Positions 84-30,305 of a stretch of DNA of 64,000 nt are shown piece by piece. The translations under genes and the position numbers were made by a program. The notes under the pieces are model-generated. The model made no database searches, was not told where the DNA came from, and saw only the letters and a list, made by a program, of their open reading frames with translations. Where the stretch lies: the IMG/VR virus record IMGVR_UViG_3300034073_002131, positions 1 to 64,000 of that record; one strand, 5' to 3'. The stretch comes from a virus. The number at the start of each line of letters is the position of its first letter. The first letter of the stretch is position 1.

Positions 84-179
84 TACTAGAGCATATTGGC
101 ACAGTAATATTTTAGCTCGGTGAAAGCCTTGTGCGGAAACCCAGATGCTATAGCTTTACTCTAATATGTTCTAATATGG
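81..179 (+). repeat. CCA/TGG junction hairpin A
   Basis: The 5' arm starts at the CCA of tRNA-Leu (CCATACTAGAGCATATT, 81-97). It pairs with AATATGTTCTAATATGG (163-179), with one mismatch and one G-T pair. An inner stem GCACA/TGTGC is also visible. First member of the hairpin family in this RNA block. Confidence 0.7.
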
Positions 180-281
180 TAGATAGTCAATGTTAAAAAT
201 GGGTATTCAAAGTATCCGTTCCAAAAGGGTGCAAATCCTGATTAAGCATAGAGCTTGGTAAAAACAACATAGACTAGCCAT
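179..281 (+). other. tRNA-like or multi-hairpin domain
   Basis: The helix TAGTC (184-188)/GACTA (272-276) encloses three small hairpins: GGGTAT/GTATCC (201-217), AGG/CCT around 226-238, and AAGC/GCTT (244-256). The domain begins GG and ends GCCA, like a degenerate cloverleaf. A T-arm-like stretch, GGGTGCAAATCC, is present, but I cannot form a normal acceptor stem or anticodon arm. I do not call it a tRNA. Confidence 0.4.
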
Positions 282-465
282 AGTTAAGTATTTTGTTCGT
301 CCTAGGTGAAATAAACAGGACATTGCAGCCCAGAGAAATAAGGGTACCCGGCCGGTATATCCCTAAAGCGGGCTGAAGTTAATCGTAGCCGATCCTTAGC
401 GGGATCATATGGTAGGAAGATTAACTCATGCGCGAGCAGGCAGTAAGCAAAATACTTTACTATGG
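278..465 (+). repeat. CCA/TGG junction hairpin B
   Basis: CCATAGTTAAGTATTTTG (278-295) pairs with CAAAATACTTTACTATGG (448-465) with a single mismatch. The enclosed 150 nt fold into at least three hairpins (299-321, 326-375, 378-425). The closing GG is the first two bases of tRNA-Tyr, so the helix abuts the tRNA 5' end. Confidence 0.75.
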
Positions 466-550
466 ATGCGTAGCCAAACGGTTGACGGCAGCGGGCTGTA
501 AACTCGTGACATAAGAAACGCTGGTGGTTCGAATCCATCCGCATCCACCA
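464..550 (+). tRNA. tRNA-Tyr (GTA)
   Basis: Acceptor GGATGCG/CGCATCC is perfect. The anticodon loop is CTGTAAA, the variable arm is long as usual for bacterial tRNA-Tyr, the T-loop is TTCGAAT and CCA is encoded at 548-550. It is flanked on both sides by long hairpins that share its first GG and its CCA, so it sits inside the candidate large RNA. Confidence 0.95.
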
Positions 551-646
551 TATTGAAGCACATTAGAATCTGTAAAAAGATCAGGGCTGGTACACCACAT
601 ACCTCTCACAGAAAGTATGTATAGACCACAATGTGTTTCAATATGG
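548..646 (+). repeat. CCA/TGG junction hairpin C
   Basis: CCATATTGAAGCACATT (548-564), which includes the CCA of tRNA-Tyr, pairs with AATGTGTTTCAATATGG (630-646). All 17 positions pair, one as G-T. An inner stem ACATAC/GTATGT lies at 597-602/615-620. Confidence 0.75.
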
Positions 647-1008
647 CTGTTGACTGGCCCGATATATGGCACTCTAAAGCCTGAAGTGGGAAAACTTATT
701 TCTAGTCAACATCCGTAATTGCGCTGCTCACGCTGAACCTATAAACTCTAAACTGGTGACTAGGACGGGGTCGTACCCCATAACGATATTAGGCTGAATA
801 ACGATAACAGCTAAGTCTAGAGACCGCAGGGATGAGCACCTGCATATAATACATCCCGCAACGCTTAAATAGTCGTATCCCTAGACTATACTGCGCACTA
901 TGCGAAAAAAGTTACGAGTGATGGTGGACTACGTAATTGGACACTGGAGACCTGCGGGCCGTCGCCCAATAGTAACAAGACACTATGAATCCACTTTAGG
1001 GAGTGGGG

Positions 1009-1102
1009 CCATAGTTCAACTCATACTGATTCGCTGGTGACTGCCAGAGATAGCTCTTTCAGGCTGAAGAATGGGTTTAAGTGAGTTGAACTATGGTTTT
1101 TT
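1009..1102 (+). terminator. CCA/TGG hairpin D, possible 3' end of the large RNA
   Basis: CCATAGTTCAACTCA (1009-1023) and TGAGTTGAACTATGG (1082-1096) are a perfect 15-bp inverted repeat followed by TTTTTT. The 58-nt interior is long for an ordinary intrinsic terminator. The stem sequence belongs to the same family as hairpins A to C. It ends just before the ribosome binding site of the next gene. Confidence 0.55.
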
Positions 1103-1112
1103 GGAGATAGCA

Positions 1113-1439
1113 ATGAGTCGTACTCTAAAAGATAAACCGCATACTATACAGTATCCAGAAGATCACTACTTGTATGATACTGTTCGTGTAGATACTGATC
1201 TAGGCTCAAGAATTGGATTTCGGTACATACAGGTTGCGGGCAAAAAGACTAAAAAACGTAGAAACTACTGTCACTTCCGGTGGTATAGCACAACTCCTAG
1301 TTGGTGGACTCGTATTACAATGACTCGTCCGCAACGACGTAAGAGTCGTATGTGGGAACAAGTCGTAACTAGAGCTGTAGACTTAGAGCTACAAGATCCT
1401 CCACTGCTGGGACGTAAACCACACATATATTATTATTAA
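1113..1439 (+). CDS. hypothetical basic protein, 108 aa
   Basis: I chose the ATG at 1113 because TTGGAG lies six bases upstream. Longer versions would start inside hairpin D. The protein is rich in Arg, Lys, Trp and Tyr (for example KKTKKRRNY near residue 46), which may suit nucleic acid binding, but no domain is recognised. Its stop codon TAA (1437-1439) directly abuts G1 of tRNA-Ala at 1440. RNase P processing there would leave the stop codon as the last bases of the mRNA. Confidence 0.7.
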   Translation: MSRTLKDKPHTIQYPEDHYLYDTVRVDTDLGSRIGFRYIQVAGKKTKKRRNYCHFRWYSTTPSWWTRITMTRPQRRKSRMWEQVVTRAVDLELQDPPLLGRKPHIYYY

Positions 1440-2952: not shown

Positions 2953-3540
<588 letters not shown>

Positions 3541-4002: not shown

Positions 4003-4108
4003 ACCTCGTAATCCCTATGTGGCACTAGCACACAAACGACGTGCTGGCACACATACCAAAACCCACAAGCAGGTTCGTGGTCAACTCAATCGCAAACTGG
4101 ATGCATAA
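3986..4108 (+). CDS. small basic protein, 40 aa
   Basis: A 40-residue, strongly basic peptide (MKPKLKPRNPYVALAHKRRA at the start), similar in character to short basic proteins seen in other phages. It overlaps the preceding gene by 17 bases. Its last three codons, including TAA (4106-4108), lie inside tRNA-Lys, which starts at 4099. Mature tRNA-Lys and a complete mRNA therefore cannot come from the same transcript. Confidence 0.65.
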   Translation: MKPKLKPRNPYVALAHKRRAGTHTKTHKQVRGQLNRKLDA

Positions 4109-4173
4109 CTCAACGGTAGAGTAACCGGCTTTTAACCGGTAAGCTGTGGGTTCGATTCCCTCTGCATCCACTA
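4099..4173 (+). tRNA. tRNA-Lys (TTT), CCA not encoded
   Basis: Acceptor GGATGCA/TGCATCC is perfect, anticodon arm ACCGG/CCGGT with loop CTTTTAA, T-loop TTCGATT. The bases after A73 are CTA rather than CCA, so the tail must be added by the host. Its 5' end overlaps the preceding gene by 10 bases. Its 3' side leads into hairpin E. Confidence 0.9.
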
Positions 4174-4233
4174 TATTAAAACACATTACTAAGAGTCCAG
4201 GTTCATAGCGTGGCATAGTGTGTTCCAATATGG
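4168..4233 (+). repeat. CCA/TGG junction hairpin E
   Basis: TATTAAAACACATTA (4174-4188) pairs with TAGTGTGTTCCAATA (4216-4230) at 13 of 15 positions, one of them G-T. The arms are bounded by CCA of the tRNA-Lys end and by TGG, whose GG begins the next tRNA. It is the shortest member of the family. Confidence 0.65.
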
Positions 4234-4332
4234 AAGGGTTGCTAATATTGGCCTTAGGGCGAGCCTTATAAACTCGTAAGCACTGTCTAGATAAGGCAGT
4301 TAATGTGGGTTCGATTCCCACCCCTTCTACCA
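4232..4332 (+). tRNA. class II tRNA, anticodon uncertain (TAT or TTA), 9-base loop
   Basis: Acceptor GGAAGGG/CCCTTCT with one G-T pair, a perfect T-arm GTGGG/CCCAC with TTCGATT, encoded CCA, D-stem CTAA/TTAG and a long variable arm (ACTG/CAGT). The anticodon stem GCGAG/CTCGT leaves a nine-base loop CCTTATAAA. If a C-A pair closes it to seven bases, the anticodon reads TAT (Ile). A shifted reading, TTA, would match the stop codon TAA. The long variable arm fits Leu, Ser or Tyr, not Ile. Identity unresolved. Confidence 0.65.
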
Positions 4333-8122: not shown

Positions 8123-8509
8123 ATGAACGAAGAACTTAAAGATTCCCTAAGTGAAATTGGCCGGGCATGGAACGAGGCTATGGATGCTATTGAACAAGCT
8201 AGCGAACGGTACTGGAATAGTTTAACTAAAGAACAACAGCTTGATGCGTTCTGTGCAGTATGCCGCCGCATCTACAAAGGTGACATTGAGGACAAAGGCA
8301 CTTACAGGTATGTCCTATACAACGTATTTGGTTTTGGTCCTGAAGCATACGCACAAGCACAAATGGCAGGATACCTGACTATTCATAACAGCATTTTTGA
8401 TGCTGATCACGATGACAACTTGCTAACTAAATTTGCTGAGTTTTGTGGGCTTGATGAGTCAAAAGTTAGTGAGTTTTGGAATCAGCATTCTTGGGCACAA
8501 AACCCATAA
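8123..8509 (+). CDS. hypothetical protein, 128 aa
   Basis: The core QQLDAFCAVCRRIYKGD, then YRYVLYNVFGFGPEAYAQAQ and GYLTIHN, is a pattern shared by proteins of many cyanophages and related environmental phages. Function unknown. Helical, acidic, cytoplasmic. The stop lies only a few bases before the tmRNA acceptor piece. Confidence 0.8.
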   Translation: MNEELKDSLSEIGRAWNEAMDAIEQASERYWNSLTKEQQLDAFCAVCRRIYKGDIEDKGTYRYVLYNVFGFGPEAYAQAQMAGYLTIHNSIFDADHDDNLLTKFAEFCGLDESKVSEFWNQHSWAQNP

Positions 8510-8570
8510 TATGATCGTATGAAGTTGACCCAAAGGTGCTTTGGACGCGGGTTCGACTCCCGCCTGGTCC

Positions 8571-8673
8571 ACCATAGATACATTACACCATTAACGCCAC
8601 GGGGTTATCTAGAGCTGCAGCTCGAAAAGCACACTGTGAGAAGTGCAGATAACAGTAGTGTATCTTTGATGGG
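8571..8673 (+). repeat. tmRNA intervening hairpin joining CCA to the coding piece
   Basis: GATACATTAC (8577-8586) pairs with GTAGTGTATC (8655-8664), and GTTATCT (8604-8610) with AGATAAC (8647-8653). The hairpin starts at the acceptor-piece CCA and closes at TGG just before the coding piece. The layout matches the tRNA junction hairpins. It would be removed during tmRNA maturation. Confidence 0.75.
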
Positions 8674-8755
8674 CCAGTCATGGTTTCGACAGGGCAATGA
8701 GTAGCAATACAGACGATCCGACACAGATAGTCGTTAAAAGTAAACAAAAACAAAC

Positions 8756-8788
8756 GCAAACGATGAAACGTTCGCATTAGCCGCCTAA
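8756..8788 (+). other. tmRNA tag reading frame ANDETFALAA
   Basis: Ten codons, GCA AAC GAT GAA ACG TTC GCA TTA GCC GCC, then TAA. The resume codon is Ala and the end FALAA is a typical protease-recognition tail. The tag is close to the betaproteobacterial ANDERFALAA type and so points to the host group. Confidence 0.92.
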
Positions 8789-8839
8789 ACTCGGCTTAGG
8801 GTTCCAGGTTATCCTCGTAACAGAAAACCTGGACTTAAA

Positions 8840-8864
8840 TGGCCATTTGGCATTTTTATTAACA
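8840..8864 (+). terminator. probable terminator after tmRNA
   Basis: Overlapping short palindromes (AAATGGCCATTT and GCCATTTGGC) followed by ATTTTTATT. They lie after the hairpin TCCAGGTT/AACCTGGA that follows the tag frame. Confidence 0.5.
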
Positions 8865-8890
8865 ATTCTTGCTCAATCGAGGAGAATAAG

Positions 8891-14654: not shown

Positions 14655-15611
14655 ATGACAAACAAACTCAAAGAATTTCTTGACGTTGCAAGCAAGCACT
14701 ACTACGATGGCTGGCCTATTATTAGTGATCGGCAGTTTGATGCACTCTCCGATCTTATCGGATACGGTGCGGTAGGTAGCGCTCCGCAGACTAACAAGGC
14801 TAAACACTTCAAGCAAATGTACAGCCTGCAGAAATTCTATGAGGACGAGGGTCAGCGTAATCCACTAGAGGGCGTTCGGGAAGTTAGCGTTACTCCCAAA
14901 CTTGATGGCGCAGCCATCTCGCTGCTTTACATCAACGGCGAGTTAGTTCAAGCACTTACTCGCGGTGATGGAGTTGAGGGTCAGCTGATTACTGATAAAC
15001 TACTATCAACTAATCTAGTACCGCATAAAATTCCGTACACGCCTATTCTCCAAATTACCGGAGAAATTGTTGCTCCAAGCCATGTAGAAAACAGCCGAAA
15101 CTATGCCGCTGGCTCACTTAATCTAAAGGATCTTGATGAATTTAGAACTCGGGCCGTTAGTTTCTTTGCCTATGGCGTATTCCCGCACTGGTCAGACTCA
15201 TATTCGCAGGATATGAAATGGCTCAAGAAGCAGGGTTTTCAAACTGTCTTGGAAGCAGACTTAGATAAAATTTATCCTTGTGATGGTGTAGTATTCAGAT
15301 GTGACTCAAATCAAGAATTTGAAGCCTTGGGCTATACTAGTAAACACCCCCGCGGTGCATATGCTAGAAAAGAACGGGCTGAGCACGTAGAAACTACCCT
15401 CTTGGGCGTAGAATGGCAAGTAGGTAAAACTGGCAAGGTTACCCCTGTAGCTATTCTAGAACCTGTTATGATTGGTGATGCACAAGTGAGCCGAGCTACC
15501 CTAAATAATCCAGGCTTTATCGAAGCCCTGGGCCTTGAAATTGGCGACAGGGTAGCTGTAATCAGGGCTGGAGAAATCATTCCCTGTGTGCTACACAAAG
15601 TAGATGCCTAA
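14655..15611 (+). CDS. NAD-dependent DNA ligase, adenylation and OB-fold half
   Basis: 318 residues. In order: a domain Ia-like NAD-binding segment (YYDGWPIISDRQFDAL), the adenylation domain with nucleophile K82 in KLDG, RGDG, the NYAAGSLN motif, DGVVFR and RKERAEHV, then an OB-fold up to GDRVAVIRAGEIIPCV. The Zn finger, HhH and BRCT domains are missing and lie in the next gene, so the enzyme is split at a domain border, as in phage T5. It would seal nicks during replication. It has its own promoter; a second promoter precedes the other half. Confidence 0.93.
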   Translation: MTNKLKEFLDVASKHYYDGWPIISDRQFDALSDLIGYGAVGSAPQTNKAKHFKQMYSLQKFYEDEGQRNPLEGVREVSVTPKLDGAAISLLYINGELVQALTRGDGVEGQLITDKLLSTNLVPHKIPYTPILQITGEIVAPSHVENSRNYAAGSLNLKDLDEFRTRAVSFFAYGVFPHWSDSYSQDMKWLKKQGFQTVLEADLDKIYPCDGVVFRCDSNQEFEALGYTSKHPRGAYARKERAEHVETTLLGVEWQVGKTGKVTPVAILEPVMIGDAQVSRATLNNPGFIEALGLEIGDRVAVIRAGEIIPCVLHKVDA

Positions 15612-15698: not shown

Positions 15699-16460
15699 AT
15701 GAAAATCACGATTCCCACAAATTGTCCGTGTTGTGACTACTCACTTGAGTGGGTTAATGACCAACTGTTTTGCCGGAATCAAGCTTGCAGTGCCCAGCTT
15801 GGTAAAAAGTTGGAACACTTTTGCAAGACCCTTGGTATCAAGGGCATGGGCTCTAAGACTATAGAAAAACTAGAACTGGCAGATATTACTGAACTCTACT
15901 ACCTAGAGGAAAGTGAGATTGCTGAATGCTTGGGTAGTGAACGTATGGCTGAGAAACTGATTGATGAAATCAATCGCAGCCGTAGCGCTGATCTAACCGA
16001 AGTCCTAGCAAGTTTTAGTATTCCCCTAATTGGTAATACCGCTTCACAAAAAGTCTCCAAAGTGGTCAGTCATATCGACGAAATCACAGCAGAAAAATGT
16101 CGTGAAGCCGGTTTAGGGGAAAAAGCCACTGAAAATCTTATGAATTGGATTCAAACAGATTTTCAAGAAATGAGAGAATTTCTGCCGTTCTCATTTCAAT
16201 CTAACCATGTAGTAGATGCCCTAGAAAATAGAAAAACTATTTGTATTACTGGTAAACTAAAAAGTTTTAAAACTAAACAAGAAGCATACGATCAACTTGA
16301 ACAGCTTGGATTTAAAATTTCCGAAACTGTAACCAAATCCCTAGACTTTCTAGTTGACGAATCTGACAAATCTAGTTCTAAGCGTAAACGTGCCGAAGAA
16401 CTAAATATTAAAATTATCACAGACCTACAACAATTTTTGAAAGAAAATAAAGATGACTGA
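15699..16460 (+). CDS. NAD-dependent DNA ligase, Zn-finger/HhH/BRCT half
   Basis: 253 residues. A four-Cys zinc finger (C9, C12, C25, C30) is followed by helix-hairpin-helix repeats (LGIKGMGSKTIEKL, FSIPLIGNTASQKVS) and a C-terminal BRCT domain from about 178 (KTICITGKLKSFKTKQEAYDQ). This is the part of LigA that binds DNA behind the adenylation domain. The first residues align with the start of the Zn-finger region, so no sequence seems lost in the split. Overlaps the next gene by eight bases. Confidence 0.9.
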   Translation: MKITIPTNCPCCDYSLEWVNDQLFCRNQACSAQLGKKLEHFCKTLGIKGMGSKTIEKLELADITELYYLEESEIAECLGSERMAEKLIDEINRSRSADLTEVLASFSIPLIGNTASQKVSKVVSHIDEITAEKCREAGLGEKATENLMNWIQTDFQEMREFLPFSFQSNHVVDALENRKTICITGKLKSFKTKQEAYDQLEQLGFKISETVTKSLDFLVDESDKSSSKRKRAEELNIKIITDLQQFLKENKDD

Positions 16461-29286: not shown

Positions 29287-29294
29287 TATTGCCT

Positions 29295-30305
29295 ATGATT
29301 AATAAATTAGTTGGAATTATTATTGCTACTGCTTCTATTTCAGTTGCAGCTCAAACACTTACAGGCGCTGGCGCTACATTTCCTTATCCTGTATACGCTA
29401 AATGGGCAGAAGCATACCAAAAAGAAACTAAAGTTGGATTAAATTATCAAAGCATAGGAAGTTCTGGCGGTATTCGTCAGATTAATAATCGAACAGTAAC
29501 TTTTGGAGCTACTGATGCTCCAGTTAAGGGTGAAGATTTAGATAAACTAGGGCAAGTTCAATTTCCTGCAATTATAGGTGGAACAGTTCCTATTATTAAT
29601 CTTGACGGAGTTCAAGCTGGTGAGCTTCGAATTACTGGACCCGTACTAGCAGAAGTTTTTATGGGTTCAATACTAAAATGGAATGACCCTAAACTACAGC
29701 AACTTAATCCAAACAAAAAACTTCCTGACTTAGCTATTACTGTAGTACACAGAGCAGATGGGTCTGGAACTACATTTAATTTTACTGATTACCTAAGCGC
29801 AGTAAGTCAGGACTGGCTAAACAAGGTGGGTCGAGGTGCCGCAGTAAAGTGGCCTGCTAATAGTAGTGTGGGCGGTAAAGGCAATGAAGGCGTGGCTGCT
29901 AATGTGCGTAGAGTACGGGGTTCTATTGGATATGTAGAGTATGCCTATGTTAAGAAAAATAACATGACATACATGAAGCTACAAAATAAGGATGGCGAAT
30001 TTGTTGATCCAGATGATGCTACCTTTGCAAGTGCTGCGGCTGGTGCAGATTGGTTTAGTGTACCAGGCATGGGTTTAAGTATTGTTAATCAGCCTGGCAA
30101 AAATACTTGGCCAATTAGTACCGCTAGTTTTATCATCATGTACAAAGATCCACAGGACAAAAAATCTAGCCAAGAAGCTATTAAGTTCTTTGACTGGGCA
30201 TTTAAACACGGTGCTAAAATGAGTGAAGAACTTGACTATGTACACCTACCAGAGTCACTACAAGCCCAAATTAAAGCCCGTGTTTGGAGTCAGATTAAGC
30301 ACTAA
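29295..30305 (+). CDS. pstS: phosphate-binding protein PstS
   Basis: 336 residues from ATG 29295; an in-frame TTG two codons upstream is the alternative start. A signal peptide (about 1-19, ending SVAAQ) precedes LTGAGATFPYPVYAKWAEAY, the classic PstS opening, then IGSSGGIRQI, FGATDAPV and HRADGSGTTFNFTDYLS, which contact phosphate. Exported to the periplasm, it would feed the host Pst transporter and raise phosphate uptake during infection. Only the binding protein is present. Known as an auxiliary metabolic gene in cyanophages. Confidence 0.93.
   Translation: MINKLVGIIIATASISVAAQTLTGAGATFPYPVYAKWAEAYQKETKVGLNYQSIGSSGGIRQINNRTVTFGATDAPVKGEDLDKLGQVQFPAIIGGTVPIINLDGVQAGELRITGPVLAEVFMGSILKWNDPKLQQLNPNKKLPDLAITVVHRADGSGTTFNFTDYLSAVSQDWLNKVGRGAAVKWPANSSVGGKGNEGVAANVRRVRGSIGYVEYAYVKKNNMTYMKLQNKDGEFVDPDDATFASAAAGADWFSVPGMGLSIVNQPGKNTWPISTASFIIMYKDPQDKKSSQEAIKFFDWAFKHGAKMSEELDYVHLPESLQAQIKARVWSQIKH

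Follow-up and report, generated by a model that had tools for sequence, protein, structure and literature searches.

Does a kilobase without a protein gene, set within a phage tRNA cluster, encode one large RNA or several small ones? The locus that raises this question spans positions 84-1102 of the window, the whole 64,000-nucleotide stretch that was analyzed, which comprises the first 64 kb of IMG/VR record IMGVR_UViG_3300034073_002131. The record totals 98,028 bases and represents a circle of about 97.9 kb, because its last bases duplicate its first 126. Its family-A DNA polymerase finds its nearest matches in T5-like Vibrio phages, at 49% identity. The locus lies inside a cluster of about 20 tRNAs and one tmRNA; tRNA-Leu(UAG) (1-83) is situated immediately upstream and, as a sequence-only reading had described, a complete tRNA-Tyr(GUA) (464-550) is embedded within it, both on the + strand, as are all of the modules described below. 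That reading proposed a single ornate RNA of about 1 kb, comparable to GOLLD and ROOL or belonging to a new class. Our analysis supports the view that this part of a phage tRNA island is structured non-coding RNA enclosing a tRNA-Tyr, but not that of one large GOLLD/ROOL-like RNA: the locus is a row of discrete modules threaded between tRNA genes, rather than a series of fixed-order domains. The notion of a new class could still hold, but for several small RNAs rather than one of 1 kb; at least two of the modules are new RNA families common to many uncultivated phages.

Coding potential and modular organization

The absence of a protein gene from the region is borne out, with no ORF longer than 80 aa inside 84-1102. 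Moreover, the alignments of its relatives carry 1-nt, 2-nt, and 53-nt indels, and therefore fit coding sequence poorly; given the lack of a long ORF and these frame-breaking indels, a protein-coding interpretation was rejected. The relatives, six close and two distant, were gathered via the downstream gene at 1113-1439 (+), which encodes a small conserved protein (MSRT..PSWW..RKPHxYYY) and is a marker gene of these tRNA clusters. The protein has no match in Pfam or PHROG, and a profile of it detects 22 phage loci, mostly adjoining tRNA genes.

Rfam covariance models (group I and II intron, HEARO, OLE, RNase P, 6S, and others) were run over the whole window, over 1-1700, and over 640-1010, and tRNA was the sole family found in 84-1102. 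The search for known large RNAs suggested by the sequence-only reading returned neither of its candidates: the GOLLD (RF02032) model has no match in this genome at E<=10 and the ROOL (RF03087) model has none, with no control genome passing the cut-off for either model. Within the homologous stretch of another contig, L043, covariance models likewise found no known Rfam family beyond tRNA. Sub-cut-off matches to microRNA and plastid families under lax Rfam thresholds were dismissed as chance, and a blastn match to Synechococcus phage BUCT-ZZ01 spans the tRNA-Tyr alone. The literature searched, outside of which lie most subscription journals and preprints, yielded no description of these RNAs.

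Elsewhere in the cluster, ARAGORN missed an unusual tRNA-Ala(UGC)-like sequence (1440-1514) and a long tRNA-Ile(UAU)-like gene (4232-4329), and a short collagen-like protein with a G-P-P repeat is encoded at 2962-3540. The tmRNA at 8462-8879 is labelled tmRNA* by ARAGORN, with the tag ANDETFALAA, and is scored by two Rfam tmRNA models, the betaproteobacterial one (143 bits) and the permuted one, hinting at a permuted form and a betaproteobacterial host. Judged by their translations, the ORFs at 14655-15611 and 15699-16460 appear to be a split NAD-dependent DNA ligase, and 29289-30305 a putative PstS-like phosphate-binding protein.

The modules in the window are ordered u1, j1, u2, tRNA-Tyr, u3, m4, m5, m6, u5. 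The 99-nt element u1 (81-179) is closed by the helix CCATACTAGAGCATATTGG / CTAATATGTTCTAATATGG, the first three bases of which are the CCA of tRNA-Leu (81-83), and is followed by j1 (180-277), a three-hairpin element with a closing helix at 184-194/266-276. u1 is present in L030/L021 and missing from the other close relatives, and j1 is gained or lost jointly with it; in close relatives except L021/L030, the pair is precisely missing between two copies of CCATA. Next, u2 (278-465) is a 188-nt RNA module comprising a closing helix, P1, and three arms. The first GG of tRNA-Tyr closes the u2 helix and its CCA opens that of u3 (548-646; closing helix CCATATTGAAGCACATT / AATGTGTTTCAATATGG), and in L004 and L022 both tRNA-Tyr and u3 are precisely missing between two copies of TATGG. 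m4 (648-711) is a hairpin module, UGUUGACU...AGUCAACA, with conservation confined to close relatives. m5 (725-839) is closed by TGCTCA/TGAGCA and features an inner helix, CTCTA/TAGAG, which reads CTATCGTGC/GCACGATAG in L053; in that contig m5 is located 3' of m6 and u5 (E 6.7e-10), whereas in the window it is located 5' of m6. m6 (855-1008) is followed by u5 (1009-1096), which has a perfect closing helix, CCATAGTTCAACTCA/TGAGTTGAACTATGG, and an insert that is swapped or deleted among relatives, with a homologous insert in L053. The inserts at the u3 and u5 sites vary by phage, each inside a different but complementary helix, as exemplified by the other insert that occupies the u3 site in L028/L030. 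Further along the cluster, a CCA-anchored hairpin (4169-4233, +) lies between tRNA-Lys and the following tRNA-Ile-like gene, and tRNA-Lys and this hairpin are likewise missing from L022, L026, and L028. This tRNA-Lys (4099-4171) ends in CTA, not CCA; G-U pairing would preserve the hairpin.

The many stems noted from the sequence are partly corroborated by folding. u1, j1, u2, u3, and u5 are all far more stable than their shuffles (z of -3.85, -4.76, -4.74, -4.18, and -5.57, respectively), but the 362 nt of 647-1008, taken alone, are not (z -0.7), and structure there consequently rests on covariation, not energy. The repeated motif GGCTGAA is indeed present at 371, 792, and 1062, but its conservation fails in relatives: the copy in u2 reads GGAGTAG or GGAGTGT in distant relatives, and that at 792 reads GACTGTA in several close ones. 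A functional repeat was rejected on account of this variation. The perfect terminal helix, of 15 bp (1009-1023/1082-1096), is followed by TTTTTT (1097-1102), but this T-run is missing beside the same helix in L022, L030, and L053, and is thus a possible but unconserved terminator. The length of the loop, 58 nt, kept a terminator scan from calling the helix and T-run.

Compensatory evolution of u2 and m6

u2 is a new RNA family with compensatory changes. Its 42-nt core, CCAGWGAAATAAGGGTAYCCGGCCGGTATATCCCTAAAGCGG, located at about 330-371, is near-invariant while the surrounding helices vary, and 19 of the 60 predicted pairs have changed on both sides with pairing kept, although most of these doubly changed pairs stem from just two distant sequences. 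Pattern scans detected u2 in 11 viral contigs; its covariance model, trained on a set that included L013 and L036, confirmed both and identified a distant member, L037 (E 2e-8). The module stands alone between tRNAs in L036 (tRNA-Pro/Ala) and L013 (tRNA-Tyr/Phe), while in the window it is flanked by tRNA-Leu/Tyr. The core has no match in the bacterial genomes or cultivated phages searched.

m6 is also a new RNA family with compensatory changes, and was identified by pattern scans and a model in 16 phage contigs, which form two subfamilies. It comprises helices Pa (857-860/901-904) and Pb (862-864/893-895), a UCCCUA hairpin at about 869-889, and a covarying GGU/ACC pseudoknot, and features the invariant motifs AAGACACUAUG and CUUUAGGGAG. 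In subfamily A, the structure has 36 pairs, with 98.1% of cells paired and double changes in 11 pairs; none of 500 shuffles performed as well, and sliding the partner by 1-3 columns reduced pairing to 30-42%. Seven subfamily-B contigs are picked up by a model built from subfamily A alone (E 1e-12 to 1e-15), and ten pairs with double changes emerge when all 15 sequences are folded without supervision. Helices registered by hand concur, their register having been picked by eye. The covariation called for by the sequence-only reading is therefore found in both u2 and m6. Every m6 member has complementary loops, UCCCUA and UAGGGA (with one G-U), which are near-invariant; since both hardly vary, covariation is silent on their pairing, and the predicted loop-loop interaction is plausible. 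No m6 was found in cultivated phage records or bacterial genomes at the sensitivities used, the single bacterial match (L072) being a coding region, and four further pattern hits (L052, L054, L057, L059) were coding false positives. Antisense pairing to rRNA or phage tmRNA was rejected for the u2 core and the m6 3' motif; against E. coli 16S/23S, their pairing is no better than that of the best shuffles. Further large structured stretches between tRNAs were observed in L043 (1-650), in L044 (1400-2130), and upstream of m6 in L055/L056, and include, immediately 5' of m6, a tRNA-like sequence whose variable region is very long.

The distribution of these modules bears directly on the proposal of a single RNA of about 1 kb, of GOLLD/ROOL type or of a new large class, in which the modules would be domains of one fold and tRNA-Tyr would sit in a linker. 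Such an RNA would account for the shared strand, the tRNA island, and the GOLLD-like combination of a conserved 3' domain (m6) with a variable 5' part containing a tRNA; moreover, CCCUAAAG in the u2 core and CUUUAGGG in the m6 loop are complementary. However, the GOLLD and ROOL models are silent, and u2 and m6 each occur without the other, m6 without detected u2 being found in L043, L044, and contigs within L049-L058. Of these m6 carriers, L043/L044 also lack the CCCTAAAG partner in the stretch examined. This separate recurrence, together with the changed order seen where m5 switches sides of m6, argues for discrete modules over one RNA, and we consider a single large RNA distinctly unlikely.

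CCA-anchored helices and putative RNA release

Many modules are enclosed by a 14-24 bp helix that starts from the CCA of the upstream tRNA, or from a CCATA copy of it, and finishes with TATGG, in many cases within the opening bases of the tRNA that follows; j1, m4, m5, and m6 have no CCATA...TATGG helix of their own. A strong helix starts at 40 of 352 distinct tRNA 3' ends, compared with 1 of 352 random starts. The CCA pairs with TGG in 23 of these 40 helices, and several helices take their GG from the following tRNA. CCAT...ATGG helices outnumber those in a reversed control about fourteenfold (110 in 411 kb versus 8), both counts including palindromes on both strands and near-identical contigs. 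Many copies have a 5' arm similar to CCATAnTnnAnCACATTA, but this arm varies freely with complementarity kept. Two long-acceptor elements first counted as modules (L030 5516 and L038 2366) were discarded, as they resemble tRNA-His with paired leader and trailer.

We propose that the modules are probably T5-like stable RNAs, made up of new families, that RNase III releases within a processed tRNA/ncRNA operon. In this T5-like phage, the region would be transcribed within a polycistronic tRNA unit, with structured RNA modules threaded in. The closing helices would be cut by RNase III, a double-strand-specific nuclease, and the tRNA ends trimmed by RNase P and 3' exonucleases, which would leave the modules as stable small RNAs, by analogy with those annotated as RNAIII, RNAIV, and RNA2H in T5. 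This proposal builds on what is observed, namely the modules and how they are gained, lost, and reordered independently, the helix and where it lies, and the compensatory evolution of u2 and m6. Phage tRNAs are counter-defence tools against PARIS (PMC12409363). A more speculative and rather unlikely extension is that the RNAs, once freed, act in trans on the translation or tRNA machinery of the host, for instance by decoying defences that target tRNAs; the near-invariant core of u2 and the loop-loop pairing of m6 would then be the likely contact surfaces. It is doubtful that u2 and m6 represent the first of new pseudoknotted phage RNA classes that act in trans and spread as exchangeable cassettes of a tRNA or ncRNA plus a stem, with the mutually complementary loops of m6 maybe linking molecules into assemblies like those of ROOL and GOLLD, the latter of which forms a homo-oligomeric cage.

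The helices might instead reflect mobile palindromes at the DNA level, similar to MITE or REP elements, which insert at tRNA 3' ends and duplicate CCATA/TATGG, with the RNA structure being incidental. Such insertion fits the precise gains and losses seen between CCATA or TATGG repeats, and also the related helix sequences found at different tRNAs. Unlike transposon ends, however, the helix sequences diverge freely with complementarity kept, and the u2 and m6 inserts preserve RNA structure through compensatory change; we regard this explanation as very improbable. Similarly poor odds attach to stems that serve only to separate tRNAs in maturation, with functionless filler or decayed tRNAs as inserts, which would suit the several short hairpins (37-71 nt) with dissimilar inserts, the swapped or deleted u5 inserts, and the T-arm-like sequence in some inserts (L034), and may apply to the short elements u1, u3, and u5, but fits poorly with the u2 and m6 inserts, for which both sequence and structure show strong conservation even among distant phages.

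Release of structured modules from a processed operon would bear on the stable RNAs of the T4 and T5 tRNA clusters, the annotations of which are still without function. Covariation yields testable structures for two phage RNA families that are common to, and shuffled among, uncultivated phages, and the recurrent CCA-anchored stem suggests how RNAs of the u2/m6 type are cut out. The covariance model and named contig set make these families searchable, and the processing step is testable in phage T5 grown on laboratory strains. Should tRNA-linked RNAs prove to be counter-defence tools, they would constitute a new layer of the phage-host contest.

Comparison with known RNAs

GOLLD (RF02032) occurs in phage tRNA islands and features a conserved 3' domain, a variable 5' part, and sometimes a tRNA in a linker (PMC12286853). 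The region described here is also located in a phage tRNA island, but lacks a match to the GOLLD model, and its modules are separable. ROOL, a phage RNA found near tRNA islands, resembles it in setting but also differs in lacking a model match. Bacterial rRNA operons enclose stable RNA in a long leader-trailer helix and cotranscribe it with tRNAs; the bracketing helix and the tRNAs are alike, but the RNAs here are different ones, in a viral operon whose processing is predicted. The rnaC and rnaD of T4 (species 1 and 2 RNAs) are similarly small stable RNAs directly downstream of a cluster tRNA, but have no CCA-anchored closing helix, and no T4 RNA matches the u2 or m6 model.

T5 (AY543070) has annotated stable RNAs inside its tRNA cluster (RNAI, RNAIII, RNAIV, RNA2H, RNA1-3, and RNAX), none of which matches Rfam at gathering scores. 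They differ from the present modules in lacking sequence or covariance homology to u2 and m6; neither model has a match in the T5 tRNA region, nor does that of m6 in the whole T5 genome, and no helix of such strength starts on a tRNA CCA in T5 or T4. The 719-nt RNAX (L063 16849-17567) contains an embedded tRNA-like sequence with the T-arm GTAGGTTCGAATCCTAC, and is the nearest known analogue of the proposed large RNA with an embedded tRNA. The likeness extends to a T5-like phage, a position within the tRNA cluster, a size range of 70-190 nt, and, in three of eight T5 RNAs, a long closing helix that continues past the RNA ends; the other five RNAs tested have no clear closing helix. Helix scores are 45 for RNAIII, 39 for RNAIV, and 25 for RNA2H, relative to a control 90th percentile of 21 and a control maximum of 32, which makes RNA2H the weaker case. 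In these three RNAs the closing helix runs beyond the annotated ends, which are staggered with 3' overhangs of 2, 1, and 2 nt, respectively, as expected after RNase III cleavage. Moreover, the RNAIII helix extends into the start of tRNA-His, with a CCA paired to TGG, in the same layout as seen in this phage.
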